This document shows, in pieces, positions 44,568-52,213 of a stretch of 64,000 nucleotides of DNA. The DNA lies in NCBI RefSeq assembly GCF_009740395.1, contig NZ_WOXT01000003.1, positions 1 through 64,000 of the forward strand. Reading direction: 5' to 3'. Below the pieces are notes generated by a model. That model did not search any database. It saw only the letters and a program-made list of their open reading frames with translations, and had not been told where the DNA came from. A program made the translations under genes and the position numbers. This DNA comes from Noviluteimonas gilva (lineage in GTDB: Bacteria; Pseudomonadota; Gammaproteobacteria; Xanthomonadales; Xanthomonadaceae). Numbering within the stretch: position 1 is the first letter of the stretch; the number at the start of each line of letters is the position of its first letter.

Positions 44568-44642
44568 TGGTGGGCGGTGCAGGGTTCGAACCTGCGACCC
44601 TTGCCGTGTGAAGGCAATGCTCTACCGCTGAGCTAACCGCCC
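44568..44642 (-). tRNA. tRNA-Val (anticodon CAC)
   Basis: The minus strand folds as a complete tRNA: acceptor GGGCGGT with ACCGCCC, D arm GCTCAGCGGTAGAGC, anticodon stem TTGCC/GGCAA with loop TTCACAC (anticodon CAC, reading GUG), T arm GCAGG/CCTGC with TTCGAAC, and an encoded CCA tail. The length is 75 bases with CCA. Confidence 0.95.
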
Positions 44643-44749: not shown

Positions 44750-45598
44750 TCACTCGATCTGGTCGCGGGCGTACGCCGCGTCGAGGGTCTCCATGGCGTC
44801 CTTCGGCTTGGCCTTCGCGGCTTTTTCGAAGGCCGCGGCGGCCGCGTCTTCCTGTTTGTCGCCGTGGAGCAGCAGCAGGACGTTGGCGTGTTCCACATGC
44901 GCGATGGGCGAGTCGGGCGTGAGCTTCAGCGCGGTCTTGATGTGGGATTCGGCCTCGCTCGCCTTCGCGCCATACGTAAGGCCGCCGATCATCGCGCCGA
45001 TCTTGCCGATGATTTCGGCGTGGTAGAGCGCCAGCGCGGTGTGCGCTTCGGCGTGCTTGGGCGCGAGCTTCAGCGCGGCATCGAGCGAGGCGCGGACCTT
45101 GCCGGCGATGCCTTGCTTCAGCGCCTTGGCGATCGACAGGCCCTGGCTGTAGCGGCCGAGGGCGAAGGCGTGGCGATAGTGGCTGTTGGCTTCGTCGGGC
45201 AGGGCCTGGATGGCGGCTTCGGCCAGTTTGGCGGCGTGTTCGAAGCGCTTGAGCTTTTCGGCGTCGTCGTCGACCAGATAGGTGGCGTGGATGCCGATGG
45301 CCTTGGTGGCGACCGAGGCACCGATGGGGCCGAGTTTTTCGCCGGCGTCGAACGCGGCCTGGAAATCGCCGCGATGGAAGGCGCGCCAGGCGTCCTGCAG
45401 GGCGGCGGCGAGCGCGTCGGCATCGAGTTTCGGCGCCGACTTTCCTGCGGCTTTCAACAACTTGCCGGCGTGCTTGGCATCCGGGAAGGGCTCCGCGTCG
45501 CCCGCGTGCAACTGCGGCCAGGCCTTCTTCAGCGCATCGCCCGCGTAGGCGAAGGCTTTCGCGTCATGCGGGAACGGCGCCCATTTCGACTTGGCCAT
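44750..45598 (-). CDS. TPR-like helical repeat protein
   Basis: The 282-residue product is almost entirely helical, with alanine- and lysine-rich pairs of antiparallel helices: AWRAFHRGDFQAAFDAGEKL, AAIQALPDEANSHYRHAFALGRYS and AALKLAPKHAEAHTALALYH correspond to TPR-like units with the small-residue and aromatic spacing of the motif. It has no signal peptide. TPR proteins are protein-binding scaffolds; no partner is evident. The gene ends 108 bases before the tRNA gene on the same strand. Confidence 0.75.
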   Translation of the reverse strand: MAKSKWAPFPHDAKAFAYAGDALKKAWPQLHAGDAEPFPDAKHAGKLLKAAGKSAPKLDADALAAALQDAWRAFHRGDFQAAFDAGEKLGPIGASVATKAIGIHATYLVDDDAEKLKRFEHAAKLAEAAIQALPDEANSHYRHAFALGRYSQGLSIAKALKQGIAGKVRASLDAALKLAPKHAEAHTALALYHAEIIGKIGAMIGGLTYGAKASEAESHIKTALKLTPDSPIAHVEHANVLLLLHGDKQEDAAAAAFEKAAKAKPKDAMETLDAAYARDQIE

Positions 45599-45729
45599 GC
45601 GGACCTTCCTGGATTCGATGGAAGCGGCAGCATTGCGCCGCGGGCGCGTCTTCGCAAGATGTCAGCGTGACCCGTGGTGTGATTACTCCAGGTGCAGCCG
45701 GCAACGTGCGCTCTCAAGCAGGAGGCTTC

Positions 45730-45963
45730 ATGTCACGGGAAACCACGCTCCGTCATCTCTGGCTCGCGGGCCTCGGGGCGCTCGCGCGTTTGCGCCGCAG
45801 CGCCGACCGCATCGCCGGGCGCATGCCCATCGCGGAAGAGCCGCCGGCCGAGCCGCCGTTCGTGACGACGCAGAAGGTCGCAAAGCGCAGTGCGCATTCG
45901 TCGGGTTCGCGCAAGGCGGGCGAGCGCGATGCGCAGCGCAGGCTCGCCGGGAAGGGCCGGTGA
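45730..45963 (+). CDS. Small basic hypothetical protein
   Basis: A 77-residue product starts at an ATG preceded by a perfect AGGAGG at six bases. The first part (TLRHLWLAGLGALARLRRSADR) recalls the conserved segment LWLAGLGA of phasin-like PHA-granule proteins, and a basic, disordered tail rich in K, R and S follows. A similar phrase, QIWLAGVGAFGRA, occurs in the phasin encoded at 50.2-50.8 kb, so it may be a short relative of that family. It is followed directly by the G-rich inverted repeat. Confidence 0.6.
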   Translation: MSRETTLRHLWLAGLGALARLRRSADRIAGRMPIAEEPPAEPPFVTTQKVAKRSAHSSGSRKAGERDAQRRLAGKGR

Positions 45964-45967
45964 AGCA

Positions 45968-46057
45968 GGGAATGGGGAATAGGGAATAGTTGTTACGAGG
46001 CGACCGGGGCGCGATGGCGACCTGCGTCGAGATAACTATTCCCTATTCCCCATTCCC
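45968..46057. repeat. G-rich inverted repeat, copy 1
   Basis: Two perfect 24-base arms lie at 45968-45991 and 46034-46057, separated by 42 bases. The left arm consists of GGGAAT/GGGGAAT/AGGGAAT units ending in AGTT. It sits between two convergent gene ends. The centre contains its own short palindromes. A related element is at 52.1 kb. Confidence 0.85.
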
Positions 46058-46063
46058 CGCCCT

Positions 46064-46690
46064 TCAGTCGATGTAGGCGCGCGTCAGCGTATTCAAATGC
46101 ACGCGCTCGGCGTCGCGCAGGAACGGCGCGAGCAACATCATCACTTGCACGATACCCGCGCGGATCGAGGCCTGTTCGTCCTTGTCGCCGCGCGCGGACG
46201 CGTAGTTCAGCCAGAACGTCGCGATCACCAGGACATTCGTCGCCGCCGCGTCGAGTTCATCGGCGCTCGCACGCATCACGCCGCCCTGCGACAGGCCGCG
46301 CATCACCGTGTGCGTCTGTTCGTCCGCGCGCCGCAGGATGCGCGCGAAGCGAATGCGCAGGCGGCGGTTGCGACTGAGGATGTTCGCCAGGTCGCGATAG
46401 AGGAAGCGATAGTCCCAGATGCACTCGAACACCTGGTGCAACTGCAGCCAGATGTCTTCCAGGCCGGGCAAGCGGCCTTCCGGTGCGCCAAGGGCGGTAT
46501 CGATGCGCTCTTCGTAACGACCGAAGAGGTGCTCGATGATGTCGTCCTTGTTGCGGAAGTGGTAGTACAAATTGCCCGGGCTGATCTCCAGCTCGTCGGC
46601 GATGTGGTTGGTGGTGACGTTGGGTTCGCCCTGCGCGTTGAACATCGCGAGCGACGCATCGAGGATGCGCTGTCGAGTTTGGCGGGCCAC
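46064..46690 (-). CDS. TetR family regulator
   Basis: The 208-residue protein has a classic TetR helix-turn-helix: RQRILDASLAMFNAQGEPNVT (split), TNHIADELEISPGNLYYHFRNKDDII with the recognition helix at SPGNLYYHF. The C-terminal ligand domain is helical and begins LPGLEDIWLQLHQVFE, matching a group often linked with fatty acid or lipid genes. The gene follows the acyl-CoA-binding protein gene after one base and is close to the divergent acyl-CoA reductase, which it may control. Confidence 0.9.
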   Translation of the reverse strand: MARQTRQRILDASLAMFNAQGEPNVTTNHIADELEISPGNLYYHFRNKDDIIEHLFGRYEERIDTALGAPEGRLPGLEDIWLQLHQVFECIWDYRFLYRDLANILSRNRRLRIRFARILRRADEQTHTVMRGLSQGGVMRASADELDAAATNVLVIATFWLNYASARGDKDEQASIRAGIVQVMMLLAPFLRDAERVHLNTLTRAYID

Positions 46691-46691
46691 G

Positions 46692-46949
46692 TCAGGCGGT
46701 CAGCTTGCCCACCAGGTCGATGTATTTCTGCATCGCCTCGTCCTGCCCGGTGCCGCTCAACTTGGCCCAGGCTTCGTACTTGGCGGTGCCGACGAAATCG
46801 AAGAACCCCGGCTTCGGGCCGGTGACGTCGCCTTCCGAGCCCTGTTTGTAGAGCGCGTACAGGCGCAGCAGCGTGTCGTTGTCGGGGCGCTCGGACAGGC
46901 CCTGGACATCCTTGGCGGCCTGTTCGAAGCGGGCTTTCAGGTCGGACAT
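46692..46949 (-). CDS. Acyl-CoA-binding protein
   Basis: The 85-residue four-helix protein has the acyl-CoA-binding signature: LKARFEQAAKDVQGL, TLLRLYALYKQGSEGDV, the YKQ motif with lysine, and KYEAWAKLSGTGQDEAMQKYI. The length equals that of the eukaryotic family. It carries long-chain acyl-CoA in the cytoplasm. The gene is the first of a two-gene unit with the TetR gene and divergent from the reductase gene, suggesting a common lipid pathway. Confidence 0.95.
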   Translation of the reverse strand: MSDLKARFEQAAKDVQGLSERPDNDTLLRLYALYKQGSEGDVTGPKPGFFDFVGTAKYEAWAKLSGTGQDEAMQKYIDLVGKLTA

Positions 46950-47078
46950 GTGCGCGTGCTCCCGGGCGGCAGGCGGGCATCACAGCATGTGGTGTCGACG
47001 TTTTCAATACGCAGGGGAATTGTGGCGCCGACAAGGGCGTGGCAACGTAGGCGCAGGACATCGGGGAGCACGCAGGAC

Positions 47079-49070
47079 ATGAGCTACTTCGTCACCGGGG
47101 CCACCGGCTTCGTCGGCCGCCACCTGGTCAGCGCGCTGCTCAAGCGCAAGGGCCCCATCCACGTGCTCGTGCGCAAGGATTCGCGCAAGAAGCTCGACGC
47201 CATCGGCGCGAAGATGGGCTGGGACATGAAGCGCATCGTGCCGGTCGAGGGCGACATGGCCGGCGCCAAGTGCGGCCTCAGCCCCGCGCAGGTGCGTGCG
47301 CTCAACGGCAAGGTGAAGCACTTCTTCCACCTGGCCGCGGTGTACGACCTCACGGCCAAGGCCGAAGTGCAGCGCGTGGCCAATGTCGAAGGCACGCAGC
47401 ACGCGCTGGACCTGGCCGCCGCCATCGGCGCCGGCACCTTCCACCACACCTCGTCGATCGCCGCCGCCGGCCTGTATCCGGGCGTGTGGCGCGAGGACAT
47501 GTTCGACGAAGCCGAAGGCCTCGACGATCCCTACCTGCGCACCAAGCACGATTCGGAAGGCCTGGTCCGCAACGAAAAACGCATCAAGTGGCGCATCTAC
47601 CGGCCGGGCATGGTCGTCGGGCATTCGCAGACCGGCGAGATGGACAAGATCGACGGCCCGTACTACTTCTTCTCCTTCATCAAGAAGCTGCGCGAAATGC
47701 TGCCGCAGTGGATGCCGATGCTCGGCCTGGAAGGTGGGCGCATCAACATCGTGCCCGTGGATTTCGTCGCCGATGCAATGGACCACATCGCGCACAAGCC
47801 CAAGCTCGACGGGCACACGTTCCATCTCACCGATCCCGAACCGATGCGCGTGGGCGAGGTGCTCAACGCGTTCGCGCGCGCCGGCCATGCGCCGGAAATG
47901 ACGATGCGCATCGATGCGCGCATGTTCGCGTTCGTGCCCGGTGGCGTGCGCGCGGCGGTGGGCAATCTGCCGCCCGTGAGACGTTTCATCGGCATGTTGC
48001 TGCGCGACTTCCGCATTCCGAAGGAAGTGCTGAAATTCATCACCTATCCCACGCGCTTCGACAATCGCGAAGCCGAGCGCGCGCTCAAGGGCAGCGGCAT
48101 CGCGGTGCCGCGCCTGGACAGCTATGCGTGGCGTTTGTGGGATTACTGGGAACGCCACCTGGATCCGGATCTGTTCGTCGACCGCTCGCTCAAGGGCAAG
48201 GTGCGCAACCGGGTCGTCGTGATCACCGGTGGTTCGTCGGGCATCGGCTTGTCGACGGCGCAGCGCGTGGCCGAAGCCGGCGCGGTCACGATCATCGTGG
48301 CGCGCGGCGAAGAGGAGTTGTTCAAGGCCCGCGATGAGATGAAGGCCAAGGGCGGCAAGGTGTTCGCCTACACCGCGGACCTGGCGGACATGGCCGATTG
48401 CGATCGGCTCATCGCCACCGTGCTGAAGGAGCACGGCCACGTCGACATCCTGATCAACAACGCCGGGCGTTCGATCCGTCGTTCGATCGAACTCAGCTAC
48501 GACCGCTTCCACGACTTCGAACGCACGATGCAGCTGAATTATTTCGGCAGCCTGCGCCTGATCATGGGCTTCCTGCCGACGATGACCCATCGCCGCAAGG
48601 GTCACATCATCAACATCAGTTCGATCGGCGTGCTGGCCAATTCACCGCGTTTCTCGGCCTATGTCGCGTCGAAGGCGGCGCTGGATGCGTGGTCGCGCTG
48701 CGCGCAGGGCGAGTTGTCGGGCAAGGGCATCGCGTTCACCACGATCAACATGCCGTTGGTGAAGACGCCGATGATCGCGCCGACCAAGATGTACGACAGC
48801 GTGCCGACGCTGACGACCGAAGAAGCCGCGGACCTGTGCGTGAAGGCGATCATCGAACGCCCGAGCCGAATCGCCACGCGCCTGGGCATCTTCGCCTCGG
48901 TGATCAACGCGCTGGCGCCGAAGGCCTACGAAGTGGTGATGAACACCGCGTTCGAATTGTTCCCGGATTCGGCCGCCGCAAAGGGCGACCGCAAGGCGCT
49001 CAAGGGCGAGCTGGAACCGAGCGGGGAGCAGATCGCATTCGCCGCGCTGATGCGCGGGGTGCACTGGTAA
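47079..49070 (+). CDS. Two-domain fatty acyl-CoA reductase, Marinobacter type
   Basis: The 663-residue protein fuses two short-chain dehydrogenase domains. The first (residues 1-360) has TGATGFVGRHL, the pair YLRTK (Y152, K156) and the acyl reductase signature FHLAAVYDL and IYRPGMVVGHSQTGEMDK. The second (about 375-660) has TGGSSGIG (383-390), NNAG (460-463), S515, Y528 and K532. Length, domain order and many stretches, for example the FHDFERTMQLNYFGS segment, fit the Marinobacter reductase that turns fatty acyl-CoA into fatty alcohol with NADPH. The ATG at 47079 fits GGGGAG upstream. Confidence 0.9.
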   Translation: MSYFVTGATGFVGRHLVSALLKRKGPIHVLVRKDSRKKLDAIGAKMGWDMKRIVPVEGDMAGAKCGLSPAQVRALNGKVKHFFHLAAVYDLTAKAEVQRVANVEGTQHALDLAAAIGAGTFHHTSSIAAAGLYPGVWREDMFDEAEGLDDPYLRTKHDSEGLVRNEKRIKWRIYRPGMVVGHSQTGEMDKIDGPYYFFSFIKKLREMLPQWMPMLGLEGGRINIVPVDFVADAMDHIAHKPKLDGHTFHLTDPEPMRVGEVLNAFARAGHAPEMTMRIDARMFAFVPGGVRAAVGNLPPVRRFIGMLLRDFRIPKEVLKFITYPTRFDNREAERALKGSGIAVPRLDSYAWRLWDYWERHLDPDLFVDRSLKGKVRNRVVVITGGSSGIGLSTAQRVAEAGAVTIIVARGEEELFKARDEMKAKGGKVFAYTADLADMADCDRLIATVLKEHGHVDILINNAGRSIRRSIELSYDRFHDFERTMQLNYFGSLRLIMGFLPTMTHRRKGHIINISSIGVLANSPRFSAYVASKAALDAWSRCAQGELSGKGIAFTTINMPLVKTPMIAPTKMYDSVPTLTTEEAADLCVKAIIERPSRIATRLGIFASVINALAPKAYEVVMNTAFELFPDSAAAKGDRKALKGELEPSGEQIAFAALMRGVHW

Positions 49071-49097
49071 TTCGAGGGAACCGAAGTGCGGCGCTCG

Positions 49098-50072
49098 TCA
49101 GAGCGTCGCACATTGCTTGAACCGCGGGTTCTGCTCGCTGTTCTCCGGCGGCTCCAGGTACACGCGCGCGGTGCGCAGGGTCGCGTACCGCGTCAGCACC
49201 GTGCACACGGCGTCGAAGCGTTCGGTCGTCGTTTCGTCGACCTGCACCTGCAGCGTGGACTTCGTCGACCACGTCGCGCGGTAGACGCCGGGCAACGACG
49301 ACACGCGGCGGATGACTTCGACGCGCTGCAATTCTTCTTCCTCGGTCGTCACGGGCATCGCGGCGCCGGCGGGCTGCACAGGGGCGGCAGGGGCGGTGCT
49401 GGCCTTCGCGAGTTCGGCCGATGCGTTGGCCGGCGGCATCTTGATCGGCGTGATGTCCTTCGGCGGCGGCGCGTCCTTGCTGCCCACCATCCAGCCGATG
49501 GCCAGGCCCACGACCAGTGCGCCCGCCCAGGAGATCCACACCATGCGGCGCGCGCGCTGGCTCGCGTCCTTGCGCACGTCCTCGGCCAGGCTCTGCGGCA
49601 GCAGCGGCGCGATCTCCGGCCACAGCGCCGTCCCATCGATGAGTTCGACGCGCGCTTCTTCGGCGGCCTTGCGTGCATCGGGATCGATCGAACCCGGCGT
49701 GACGAGCAGGCCGCTGCGCGCGCCCTGGAACTTCATCGCGCCGACGAACTCGGCCACCGATTGCTTGGTGAGCTTGTAGGCCGAGCCGTGCTTGCAGCCG
49801 AGCACCGCGCGTTCGCCGTTGCGCGTCAGCAGGAATTCGGTCTGTTGCCCGCGGTCGACTTCGTCGTCGGTCGTGATCACGTCGTAGCCGCGGTGGCGCA
49901 TCGCGTCGATGACGAAATGCGAGAACTCGCGCCAGCGCATCGCCGACAGCGCGCGTACGCCGTTGAGCGCTTCGTCCTGCCGGCGGCGGATCGTCCAGAA
50001 GTAGAGCGTGCCGAGCGCGCCGGTGAGCGCGATCACGACAAGGGCGACCAGAAACGATGTCGCTGAAGGCAT
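49098..50072 (-). CDS. Membrane-anchored Mrr-like nuclease-fold protein
   Basis: The 324-residue product starts with a membrane helix (SFLVALVVIALTGALGTLYFW) and carries a PD-(D/E)xK-like Mrr domain at residues 45-155: MRWREFSHFVIDAMRHRGYDV, the acidic QQTEFLL, the CKHGSAY where the family has QxKRW and AEFVGAMKFQGARSGLLVTPG. A second helix (AGALVVGLAIGWMVGS) and a proline- and alanine-rich periplasmic part of 120 residues follow. The usual catalytic lysine motif is present as CKH. Membrane Mrr-like proteins are of unknown function; nuclease activity is unproven. Confidence 0.7.
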   Translation of the reverse strand: MPSATSFLVALVVIALTGALGTLYFWTIRRRQDEALNGVRALSAMRWREFSHFVIDAMRHRGYDVITTDDEVDRGQQTEFLLTRNGERAVLGCKHGSAYKLTKQSVAEFVGAMKFQGARSGLLVTPGSIDPDARKAAEEARVELIDGTALWPEIAPLLPQSLAEDVRKDASQRARRMVWISWAGALVVGLAIGWMVGSKDAPPPKDITPIKMPPANASAELAKASTAPAAPVQPAGAAMPVTTEEEELQRVEVIRRVSSLPGVYRATWSTKSTLQVQVDETTTERFDAVCTVLTRYATLRTARVYLEPPENSEQNPRFKQCATL

Positions 50073-50142
50073 GCGGGGTCTGCGAATGCGGGGTGGCGCA
50101 TCTTACGCCAGCAGCCGCTGTACGCCATGTAACGCATGCCGC

Positions 50143-50208
50143 AAAAAAGCCCGCCAGTCCGAAACCGTCAGGGGAGGGGAGCGACGGAACCGCGTGGACT
50201 GGCGGGCT
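50143..50208 (-). terminator. Rho-independent terminator of the phasin gene
   Basis: AGCCCGCCAGTCC (50148-50160) and GGACTGGCGGGCT (50196-50208) form a perfect 13-pair stem. The enclosed 35 bases hold an inner CCGTC/GACGG pair. On the minus strand the stem is followed by TTTTTTGC. Confidence 0.9.
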
Positions 50209-50232
50209 GAGCTGTTTGTTTGCGCGGGTGGA

Positions 50233-50769
50233 TCAGACGGCGGCTTTCTTCGTCGCCTTCTTGCGCGCGCGCTTGGCCGGTGCCTTCGCCGGCGCGGCGG
50301 CGGTCGTGGTGCGACGCGGCGAAACGCGGCGAAGCTCAGCCGTCAGCGCATCGACGCGATCGGCCAGCGCCGTCAGGTCTTCGCGGTTGGGAACGCCGAG
50401 CTTGACCAGCGCGCGCTGCACGCGATCTTCGAACACCTTTTCCAGGCGGTCCCAAGTATCCACGGCGCGTTCACGCGCCTGGCCCACGCGGCTCTCGACG
50501 GCGTCGCGCACGACATCGGCGCGATTGCCCGCAAGCTTGCGCGCGGTCTGTTCCAGGTTGAGGCCTTCCTTCACCAGGCCTTCGAACAGGCGCGTGCCTT
50601 CGGCCTGCGCGCGTCCGAACGCGCCGACGCCGGCGAGCCAGATCTGCTGCGCCGATTCGCTGATGGACTTGGACAGACGCTCGGCCTGCGCCTGTTGCGC
50701 GGCGGCGCTGGCGGATAAGGATTTGCGGGCGGTCTTCGCGGTCTTTGCGGTCTTCTTCAGCTTGGCCAT
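50233..50769 (-). CDS. Phasin, PHA granule-associated protein
   Basis: The 178-residue product has the phasin core ISESAQQIWLAGVGAFGRAQAEGT cut here, a long amphipathic helix region with a coiled-coil stretch (TWDRLEKVFEDRVQRALVKLGVP) and LTALADRVDALTAELRR, ending in an alanine-lysine-proline tail like histone-like PhaF. Phasins coat polyhydroxyalkanoate granules; the basic tail can attach them to DNA. AAGGG precedes the ATG at 50769 at the normal distance. A strong terminator follows the stop. No PHA synthase gene is in the window. Confidence 0.9.
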   Translation of the reverse strand: MAKLKKTAKTAKTARKSLSASAAAQQAQAERLSKSISESAQQIWLAGVGAFGRAQAEGTRLFEGLVKEGLNLEQTARKLAGNRADVVRDAVESRVGQARERAVDTWDRLEKVFEDRVQRALVKLGVPNREDLTALADRVDALTAELRRVSPRRTTTAAAPAKAPAKRARKKATKKAAV

Positions 50770-50837
50770 GGCGTGGTTGCCCTTCAAGGATTACGACGGA
50801 GAATCCGGCGCTCCGCTAGAGCATTCACACCAAGGCG

Positions 50838-52076
50838 TCAGGCCTGGCGCCGGGAAGCGATCAGATGGTCGACTTCGTCCAGCGCCCGGCGCAGGCGCGC
50901 GGTGGTTTCGGTGGCGCGCGGCGGATGGGGCAGGCCGTCGAGGATCGAGCGGGTGGTGTCGTTGATGACCTCTTCGCGCAGGGACAGGCCGTGCGCTTCG
51001 AGTACCGGTCGCAGTTCGGCGGCGCGCTTGCGCAGATCGTCGAGCGTGTTGCGATAGGCGATCTCGCACACCCGGCGGCGCGCGGAGAAGGAGAAGACGT
51101 TGGTGAAGAACAACTCGCCGTCGTCGCTGTTGGGTTCGAACACGAGCTGGTCGATGTTCGGATAGGTCTGCGCGTAACGCTGCAGGCCGACCTGCATGCG
51201 CGATTGCAGCAGCGTGCGGAAGGTCTGCGACAGCACCATCGGCAGGCCGCCTTCGGACAGGCGCGACTCGATGCCGTCGGGCGAACGCTTGGCGACATTC
51301 GCATCGAACGGGACCAGCGGATTGATGCCGATCAACAGATCGACGCCGCGTTCGAGCAACAACGAAGCATGCATCGTGCGACGCAGCGCACCGTCGACGA
51401 AATGCCGCCCGCGCACTTCCACCGGCGCATACAGGCCCGGCAACGCGGCACTGGCCTGCACCGCGCGCGAGATCGGCACGTCATCCCAGTCTTCGCCGCC
51501 GAAGCGCACGGCCTTGCCGCTGTCCAGTTCGACCGCGACCACGTACAGCGGCGCGGCCAGTTCGCGGAAATCGTTGCTGCGGCCACGACGCGTGAACACA
51601 TCGCGCAGGAAGCGTTCGATCTCCGCGCTGTCGAACAGGCCCGTCGGCACCAGCCCGCCGAAGCGGTTGATCGCATCGGACCAGCGCGAATCGCCGCGGC
51701 GGAACACGATGTCGCGCCACCATTCCATCGCCAGGCGCGGCGCGCTCGCGGCGCGGCGCATGTATTCGATGAAGGCCGGGCGCAGGAAGGTTTCGGGGCG
51801 GAACTGCACGTCGTCGCTGTCGCCGGTGATGAAGATCCGGCACATCTCCGCGGTGTCCATGCGGTTGGCCAGGCCCGCGGCGAGGAACGCACCGGAGCTG
51901 ACGCCGACGTAGCAATCCAGGCGCGTGAGATCCAGGCCCCCGATCGCCTCGTCCATCGCGCGCAGCGCACCGAGCTCGTACATGCCGCCGATGGGGCCGC
52001 CGCCCGCGACGGCCAGGCCGATCTTGGGAGGGCGGGAGGCGGAGGGGCGGTCGAGTGCGGTGTGGAGGGAGAGCAT
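50838..52076 (-). CDS. Patatin-like phospholipase
   Basis: The 412-residue product shows the patatin catalytic pair: glycine-rich oxyanion loop AVAGGGPIGGMYELGAL, nucleophile serine in GVSSGAFLAAG and catalytic aspartate in FVDGALRRTMHA. A helical C-terminal part of about 130 residues follows. The fold hydrolyses ester bonds of phospholipids or, in some PHA-related members, polyester chains. It sits between a phasin gene and genes of the PHA system family, which favours a granule or lipid-droplet link, but the evidence is only positional. Confidence 0.9.
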   Translation of the reverse strand: MLSLHTALDRPSASRPPKIGLAVAGGGPIGGMYELGALRAMDEAIGGLDLTRLDCYVGVSSGAFLAAGLANRMDTAEMCRIFITGDSDDVQFRPETFLRPAFIEYMRRAASAPRLAMEWWRDIVFRRGDSRWSDAINRFGGLVPTGLFDSAEIERFLRDVFTRRGRSNDFRELAAPLYVVAVELDSGKAVRFGGEDWDDVPISRAVQASAALPGLYAPVEVRGRHFVDGALRRTMHASLLLERGVDLLIGINPLVPFDANVAKRSPDGIESRLSEGGLPMVLSQTFRTLLQSRMQVGLQRYAQTYPNIDQLVFEPNSDDGELFFTNVFSFSARRRVCEIAYRNTLDDLRKRAAELRPVLEAHGLSLREEVINDTTRSILDGLPHPPRATETTARLRRALDEVDHLIASRRQA

Positions 52077-52108
52077 CGGGCGAGTTTAGCGGTGGGGCGG
52101 ATGAAAAG

Positions 52109-52197
52109 CGGGAATAGGGAATGGGGAATGGTTGTGGCGACGTGACCTGAAGCGCCGCGCATTTCCTATTCCCCATTCCCCATTCCCCATTCCCGCT
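52109..52197. repeat. G-rich inverted repeat, copy 2
   Basis: A left arm of GGGAAT-type units (52109-52132) faces a C-rich right arm (about 52164-52197), paired with one mismatch over 24 bases. The minus strand of the right arm has four tandem G runs separated by AAT, the pattern of a parallel G-quadruplex. It lies between the divergent patatin and hypothetical genes, so it overlaps their promoters. Confidence 0.8.
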
Positions 52198-52213
52198 CTA
52201 TATCCTCCCCCGC

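Follow-up and report, generated by a model that had tools for sequence, protein, structure and literature searches.

A two-domain fatty acyl-CoA reductase and its conserved gene neighbourhood in Noviluteimonas gilva as parts of a probable wax-ester storage module

The first 64,000 nucleotides of contig NZ_WOXT01000003.1 of Noviluteimonas gilva (assembly GCF_009740395.1), hereafter referred to as the window, contain the gene of a Marinobacter-type fatty acyl-CoA reductase (FAR) surrounded by genes for an acyl-CoA-binding protein (ACBP), a TetR-family regulator, a tetratricopeptide repeat (TPR) protein, phasins and a patatin-like lipase. Genome comparison revealed that FAR is gained or lost together with wax ester synthase/diacylglycerol acyltransferase (WS/DGAT), ACBP and the TPR protein. 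As best explanation of the whole we propose, with a probability of about 0.78, that FAR supplies the fatty alcohol for a wax-ester storage module. The first-pass annotation had confined the locus to positions 46064–49070, which are correct but too narrow, the conserved neighbourhood covering at least positions 44750–52076. Its genes and features are:

44750–45598, minus strand: TPR protein, 282 aa (by comparison and structure model)
45730–45963, plus strand: short phasin-like open reading frame, 77 aa (weak; PF05597 E 0.0088, TIGR01837 E 0.0045)
46064–46690, minus strand: TetR-family regulator, 208 aa (PF13972 143.3 bits, PF00440 47.2 bits)
46692–46949, minus strand: ACBP, 85 aa (PF00887 104.3 bits, cut-off 28.3)
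46950–47078, no strand: ACBP–FAR divergent promoter region (read by eye)
47079–49070, plus strand: FAR, Marinobacter-type two-domain short-chain dehydrogenase/reductase (SDR), 663 aa, ATG to TAA (by Pfam, NCBIfam and homologues)
49098–50072, minus strand: Mrr-type protein (PF04471; N-terminal hydrophobic stretch seen by eye)
50233–50787, minus strand: granule-associated phasin, 184 aa (over both cut-offs: PF05597 151.2 bits against 28.8, TIGR01837 122.4 against 94.7)
50838–52076, minus strand: patatin-like phospholipase/lipase, 412 aa, a candidate lipid-mobilising enzyme (PF01734 100.5 bits)

FAR is composed of an N-terminal extended, thioester-reductase-like SDR domain (PF07993, residues 5–234, 160.9 bits) and a C-terminal Acr1-like SDR domain (PF00106, residues 378–568, 172.5 bits). 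The NCBIfam model NF005539 (PRK07201.1) spans residues 1–663 with 996.2 bits against a cut-off of 549, and a Marinobacter litoralis homologue is identical in 421 of 663 positions (63%, 2 gaps; Maqu_2507 itself was not compared), which bears out the earlier claim of a Marinobacter-like reductase over the whole length. The full-length match to this one equivalog model rules out a reading of FAR as a generic SDR. It was also rightly predicted that annotation as a short-chain dehydrogenase would hide the function: NF005539 carries only the name ‘SDR family oxidoreductase’, which conceals the probable wax-ester pathway in annotations. When one genome per species was scanned, at least 594 candidate stretches were obtained, 589 of them confirmed; among these, Lysobacter lactosilyticus ranks first (94%) and Marinobacter species reach 62–63% over the full length. 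Residues 371–663 share 53% identity with an Acr1-like protein of Acinetobacter, and a two-domain homologue from Tsukamurella shows 43% identity across 639 aligned columns. An alignment of the window FAR with 24 homologues, two from Marinobacter among them, revealed T6-G7-G10-G13 and Y152/K156 in the N-terminal domain and G384-G388-G390, S515, Y528 and K532 in the C-terminal domain as invariant; both SDR domains carry a cofactor glycine motif and Y-x-x-x-K. Among the best 60 of 629 matches of a PDB sequence search with FAR, no protein spans both domains.

As a Marinobacter-type enzyme, FAR very probably converts fatty acyl groups into fatty alcohols. The Marinobacter fatty acyl-CoA reductase Maqu_2507 was reportedly the subject of work by Willis et al. 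in 2011. Maqu_2507 is described as reducing acyl-CoA to alcohol with NADPH (PMC3522743, PMC7744569), and Acinetobacter Acr1 as a one-domain enzyme with aldehyde as its only product (PMC3522743). The window FAR agrees with the Marinobacter enzyme in having two domains and both sets of catalytic motifs. Acr1 and the mycobacterial FCR1/FCR2 are further known enzymes for comparison: the likeness to the Acr1-like protein lies in the C-terminal half, that to the Tsukamurella homologue extends over both domains, and Acr1 itself is a single-domain protein. Because Acr1 resembles this half, we tentatively, and with some reserve, assign the step from acyl-CoA to aldehyde to the C-terminal domain and that from aldehyde to alcohol to the N-terminal domain.

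A search of the genome for a wax ester synthase, recommended by the first-pass annotation, retrieved one WS/DGAT (G000:C3:262239–263021, minus strand) on the same contig, 213 kb beyond FAR. It scores 434.6 bits with TIGR02946 (cut-off 309.95), contains PF03007 and PF06974 as well as the motif HHxxxDG in the form HHSYADG, and matches the solved WS/DGATs 7nxg (E 1.8e-35) and 6chj (E 3.5e-34). The genome therefore possesses both FAR and WS/DGAT, the pair expected of a wax-ester storage pathway. On the acyl-CoA side, ACBP aligns to solved ACBPs with a best E of 3.3e-19, and the alignment with 2fdq retains YxxYK, AK and YID, which we take to be the acyl-CoA-contacting Tyr/Lys positions.

The coupling of these genes was analysed in two samples (G numbers denote genomes). 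The order-level sample comprises 60 relatives from 51 genera, the own genome included, of which 37 carry FAR. In 36 of these the cut-off is exceeded; the remaining copy, in G058, extends as far as a contig end. The copies of G018 and G027 likewise stop at contig ends. WS/DGAT is found in exactly these 37 and in none of the 23 genomes without FAR. The TPR protein follows with 35/37 versus 0/23 and ACBP, present in 36 relatives, with 34/37 versus 2/23. In 33 of the 37 genomes a WS/DGAT at least 52% identical to the own one is present; G045, G049 and G054 have solely copies of 26–30% identity, and G038 has seven copies, the three compared being 26–30% identical. Of the 33 enzymes of the own type, 32 have an intact HHxxxDG. 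In G008 (locus L098, 2663–4041) the own-type enzyme is split across two frames with an unreadable HHxxxDG region, and a second WS/DGAT, of the other type, is present.

In an rpoB phylogeny covering 55 of the 60 relatives (a single gene and a quick method; no rpoB row for G011, G028, G034, G038 and G056, partial rows for G015 and G052, the latter on a very long branch) FAR requires 11 changes. When 10 independent pairs were drawn on branches with good support, WS/DGAT changes the same way as FAR in 10.0, the TPR protein in 9.9, ACBP in 8.3 and the class III PhaC control in 0.3 (sign test p 0.002 for WS/DGAT, median p 0.008 for ACBP); by such pair counts, gain is not distinguishable from loss. 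The notion that FAR accompanies any storage pathway is unsupported, as the PhaC control does not follow it.

The phylum-level sample is an even draw of 378 Pseudomonadota, with FAR defined by E 1e-120 or better, by which strongly cut genes would be missed. FAR occurs in 14 genomes, all of which encode WS/DGAT, compared to 26 of the 364 without FAR (40 genomes with WS/DGAT at E 0.001, 39 over the cut-off). ACBP is present in 13/14 versus 12/364, which agrees with the earlier statement that bacterial ACBPs are uncommon outside a few groups (25/378), and the TPR protein in 12 genomes in all, 7 of them among the 14. Fisher p values, uncorrected for relatedness, are 2e-15 for WS/DGAT, 2e-16 for ACBP and 1e-8 for the TPR protein. 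The fatty alcohol or wax ester reading, originally drawn from a single protein, thus gains support from genome comparison: WS/DGAT is present, and FAR is never seen without it in either sample. Taken together, these data suggest that FAR is quite likely to serve wax ester synthesis jointly with WS/DGAT, and that the bacterium very probably stores wax esters.

No signal peptide is evident by eye at the start of the TPR protein. Its structure model, based on an alignment of the window protein with 25 of 38 sequences, reached a pLDDT of 96 and a pTM of 0.92. Foldseek placed BstC (7t1s) and PTPIP51 (7cc7) at the top ranks, and VIA-align gave Z values of 20.2 for 8g52 (TPAT), 19.3 for 7t1s, 18.2 for 7cc7, 18.1 for 3u64 (TatT) and 17.9 for 4di3 (TatT complex). 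According to the literature, BstC binds sterols and is outer-membrane-associated, TatT is periplasmic with a ligand that is not settled (PMC10942540), and PTPIP51 has a TPR domain with phospholipid-binding and, in vitro, phosphatidic acid transfer activity (PMC9239997). These proteins resemble the window TPR protein in fold (Z 18–20, ca. 200 residues) at just 15–20% identity in the alignments. PTPIP51 is eukaryotic, and whereas BstC is outer-membrane-associated and TatT periplasmic, the window protein is proposed to be a cytosolic lipid-binding or neutral-lipid assembly factor. A lipid carrier in the wax-ester module is our preferred reading of it, with about even odds.

Alternatively, the TPR protein might be an ordinary protein-protein scaffold of the module, which e.g. 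tethers FAR or WS/DGAT to the membrane and binds no lipid. TPR repeats usually bind proteins, and TPR folds are alike. A small Z margin over generic TPR proteins weighs against the carrier function: the next kinds of structures are 2pl2 (Z 17.2) and 8jal (16.1), followed by many generic TPR proteins (12–17), and the second TPAT entry 8g53 reaches 14.9. At the sequence level, the TPR profile finds 7cc7 as a weak match (E 0.015), below many designed TPR proteins, and the window protein attains 10.9 bits (E 0.27) with Pfam RMD1-3 (PF21033), under the cut-off of 26.7. On the other hand, the best fold matches are the sterol-binding BstC, the phospholipid-binding domain of PTPIP51 and the TPAT/TatT relatives, and RMD1-3 is detected at E≤1 in 19 of 26 TPR orthologues (best 1.9e-5). 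We regard the scaffold function as possible but somewhat doubtful. An extended proposal makes the TPR protein the founding member of a family of bacterial lipid carriers that work in the cytosol and specialise in wax esters; with ACBP, phasins, FAR and WS/DGAT it would form a self-contained neutral-lipid-droplet assembly module on a BstC/PTPIP51-type helical-repeat fold. We consider this proposal rather unlikely in its full form. Relatives of the TPR protein also occur in genomes without this FAR or WS/DGAT, namely G116, G120, G203 and G316 (family f17, E ca. 1e-57) and G280 (8e-75), so that the family may serve another purpose in these genomes.

Starting from family membership and coupled presence, which are observed, we infer every chemical and cellular step of the following scenario. 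ACBP would hold long-chain acyl-CoA, which FAR would reduce with NADPH via the aldehyde, formed in the C-terminal Acr1-like domain, to the alcohol, formed in the N-terminal domain. WS/DGAT, encoded elsewhere in the genome, would form the ester from this alcohol and another acyl-CoA molecule. The TPR protein might bind the neutral lipid or a precursor and help to transfer it into a cytosolic lipid body, which phasins would coat and the patatin lipase would mobilise. Finally, TetR might sense the acyl-CoA or fatty-acid state and control the divergent promoters.

Several observations weigh against this scenario. The structure model of FAR is of moderate quality (pLDDT 76). The WS/DGAT gene is unlinked to FAR in this genome; its neighbours include alanine racemase and DnaB genes, and it is therefore not in a lipid cluster here. 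The majority of the WS/DGAT genomes in the phylum sample (26/40) lack such a FAR. The TPR protein is absent from the FAR-containing genomes G038 and G049 and from 7 of the 14 in the phylum sample, and is present in 5 phylum genomes without FAR. G023 and G025, like the 12 phylum genomes already mentioned, have ACBP but no FAR, and ACBP was not found in the FAR-containing genomes G018, G027, G059 and G090. Moreover, WS/DGATs are often bifunctional and also make triacylglycerol. The bifunctionality, the enzymes without FAR and the missing linkage are the points in favour of a different fate of the alcohol, mainly into another product such as an alkylglycerol or other ether lipid, a free alcohol or a secondary metabolite, with WS/DGAT making triacylglycerol. 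However, a WS/DGAT devoted to triacylglycerol need not follow FAR, yet both change together in 10/10 pairs and no genome of either sample has FAR without WS/DGAT; in addition, the Pfam matches revealed no ether-lipid gene among the named cluster genes, the genome itself not having been searched for such genes. We therefore consider this alternative improbable.

The phasins require a separate evaluation. A class III PhaC is encoded in this genome (G000:C2:731176), and therefore the phasin may serve polyhydroxyalkanoate instead of wax esters, which likewise counts against the wax-ester assignment. Class III PhaC exceeds its cut-off in 45 of the 60 relatives, the own genome included. Phasin at E 1e-15 or better is found in 37/37 genomes with FAR and 9/23 without, and 9 of the 37 lack a class III PhaC over the cut-off, class I/II PhaC not having been searched for. 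In another reading, the phasins and the patatin mark a polyhydroxyalkanoate locus that acquired a lipid reductase by drift, and phasin and TPR protein act on polyhydroxyalkanoate granules. This agrees with the frequent PhaC and with the phasin families being named for that role, but is very unlikely in view of a PhaC that does not change with FAR, the stated distribution of phasin and PhaC, and a TPR protein that tracks FAR and WS/DGAT. As to the short reading frame 45730–45963, its scores lie under the phasin cut-offs (PF05597 16.5 bits, TIGR01837 17.1 bits). A fuller phasin-like gene occupies its position in e.g. L230, L232, L243 and L244, and it could be what is left of the phasin found there in some relatives, or a short variant of it.

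Gene order was compared in the best 80 loci of the scan (named loci, L numbers; up to 10 kb on each side, some short), with the window proteins as blastp queries at E 1e-4. Near FAR, ACBP was found in 65, TetR in 64, phasin in 55, patatin in 39, the TPR protein in 38 and WS/DGAT in 11 of them. The layout in many relatives with FAR is TPR, small phasin-like reading frame, TetR and ACBP, divergent from FAR, in some of them an Mrr-like gene, phasin and patatin. The earlier description of ACBP and TetR as divergent neighbours of FAR is confirmed in that ACBP is directly divergent and TetR follows ACBP on the same strand. ACBP lies at most 2.5 kb from FAR in 28 of the 34 relatives that have both, and farther away or on another contig or stretch in G008, G010, G031, G039, G045 and G058. 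WS/DGAT, TPR, phasin, TetR and ACBP, divergent from FAR, occur together at L224, L230, L232, L234, L243, L244 and L255, three of which belong to Wenzhouxiangella; since such compact loci exist elsewhere, Lysobacter seems to have a dispersed version of the cluster. Compact arrangements were also found in G043 (FAR, ACBP, TetR, phasin, TPR and WS/DGAT inside ca. 6 kb) and G058 (WS/DGAT, TPR, phasin, TetR and ACBP inside ca. 4 kb), while the betaproteobacterial L246, L251, L253 and L261 have most cluster genes in other orders. In the two relatives with ACBP and without FAR, G023 and G025, tblastn detected no FAR remnant between Mrr and ACBP at E below 0.6 and the site is closed up; the ACBP promoter is still readable by eye, and WS/DGAT and TPR are both missing. 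As both genomes lie near each other on the rpoB tree, a single loss may account for them.

The divergent region between ACBP and FAR contains, as read by eye, an ACBP promoter with a −35 box TTGAAA (47007–47002) and a −10 box TGTGAT (46984–46979) at 17 bp spacing. Of 61 ACBP–FAR gaps, one from the window and 60 from the set of 80 named loci, 44 carry TTGACC at the site of TTGAAA (ca. 1.9 expected), with TGnT(A/G)TnA-like boxes 16–17 bp after it. A dyad CAAT-N10-ATTG (47005–47022) overlies the −35 box. The pattern CAAT-N8..12-ATTG recurs among close relatives in 16 of 23 cases, against 0.0 expected from shuffled sequences, and in 0 of 38 more distant loci; these patterns were chosen after reading the sequences, so that the expected values flatter them, and the rows of the close group are not independent. 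Palindrome counting in the gaps found no widely shared dyad. The dyad is a candidate operator for the close group only, and TetR is the probable regulator of the cluster.

With respect to known systems, none of the genes for ACBP, TetR, TPR protein, phasin, patatin and WS/DGAT was found within up to 10 kb on each side of FAR at five Marinobacter loci (L249, L260, L264, L265 and L269), whereas the window FAR is part of a conserved cluster. The nearest report is that of sediment metagenome scaffolds (PMC10351704, 2023), in which ACBP and SDRs 49.5–61.9% identical to MAQU_2507 are described beside WS/DGAT; these scaffolds are beta- and gammaproteobacterial, one with a phasin and two with a polyhydroxyalkanoate-system gene. 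The types of ACBP, SDR and WS/DGAT are those of the window cluster, but the report makes no gain-loss comparison across genomes, and the terms tetratricopeptide, TPR, TetR, Lysobacter and Wenzhouxiangella are absent from its main text. At the level of titles and abstract openings, a literature search retrieved no paper that treats a TPR protein together with wax ester synthase in bacteria, PMC10351704 being the nearest, and none on wax esters in Lysobacter. Hence the FAR family, WS/DGAT, ACBP and the position of ACBP and reductase beside WS/DGAT are known; what appears to be new is the TPR protein and the joint gain or loss of the genes. If the wax-ester assignment is correct, Lysobacter and much of its order join the bacteria with this storage mode, which was repeatedly gained or lost as a unit, and a protein that has not been studied so far can be named as a companion of the pathway. 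To our knowledge, little is understood of how bacterial neutral lipids reach coated bodies after leaving the synthase. For this transfer, the TPR protein and the phasins of the cluster are candidates that can be tested directly.

Some further features of the surroundings may be mentioned. In 20 of the 80 named loci, FAR has a homologue of the Mrr-type protein nearby, and two genomes without FAR keep it beside ACBP. A tRNA-Val gene (anticodon CAC; 44568–44642, minus strand) is located just past the TPR gene. Palindromic intergenic elements at 45965–46060 and 52094–52210, with arms of the GGGAATAGGGAATGGGGAAT type, flank the TetR-ACBP-FAR-Mrr-phasin-patatin block on both sides. They are REP/MITE-like, their longest arms measuring 37–38 nt with 86–87% complementarity, and the palindrome core has 11 matches in the window (0.18 expected), 10 of which fall into the two flanking elements.

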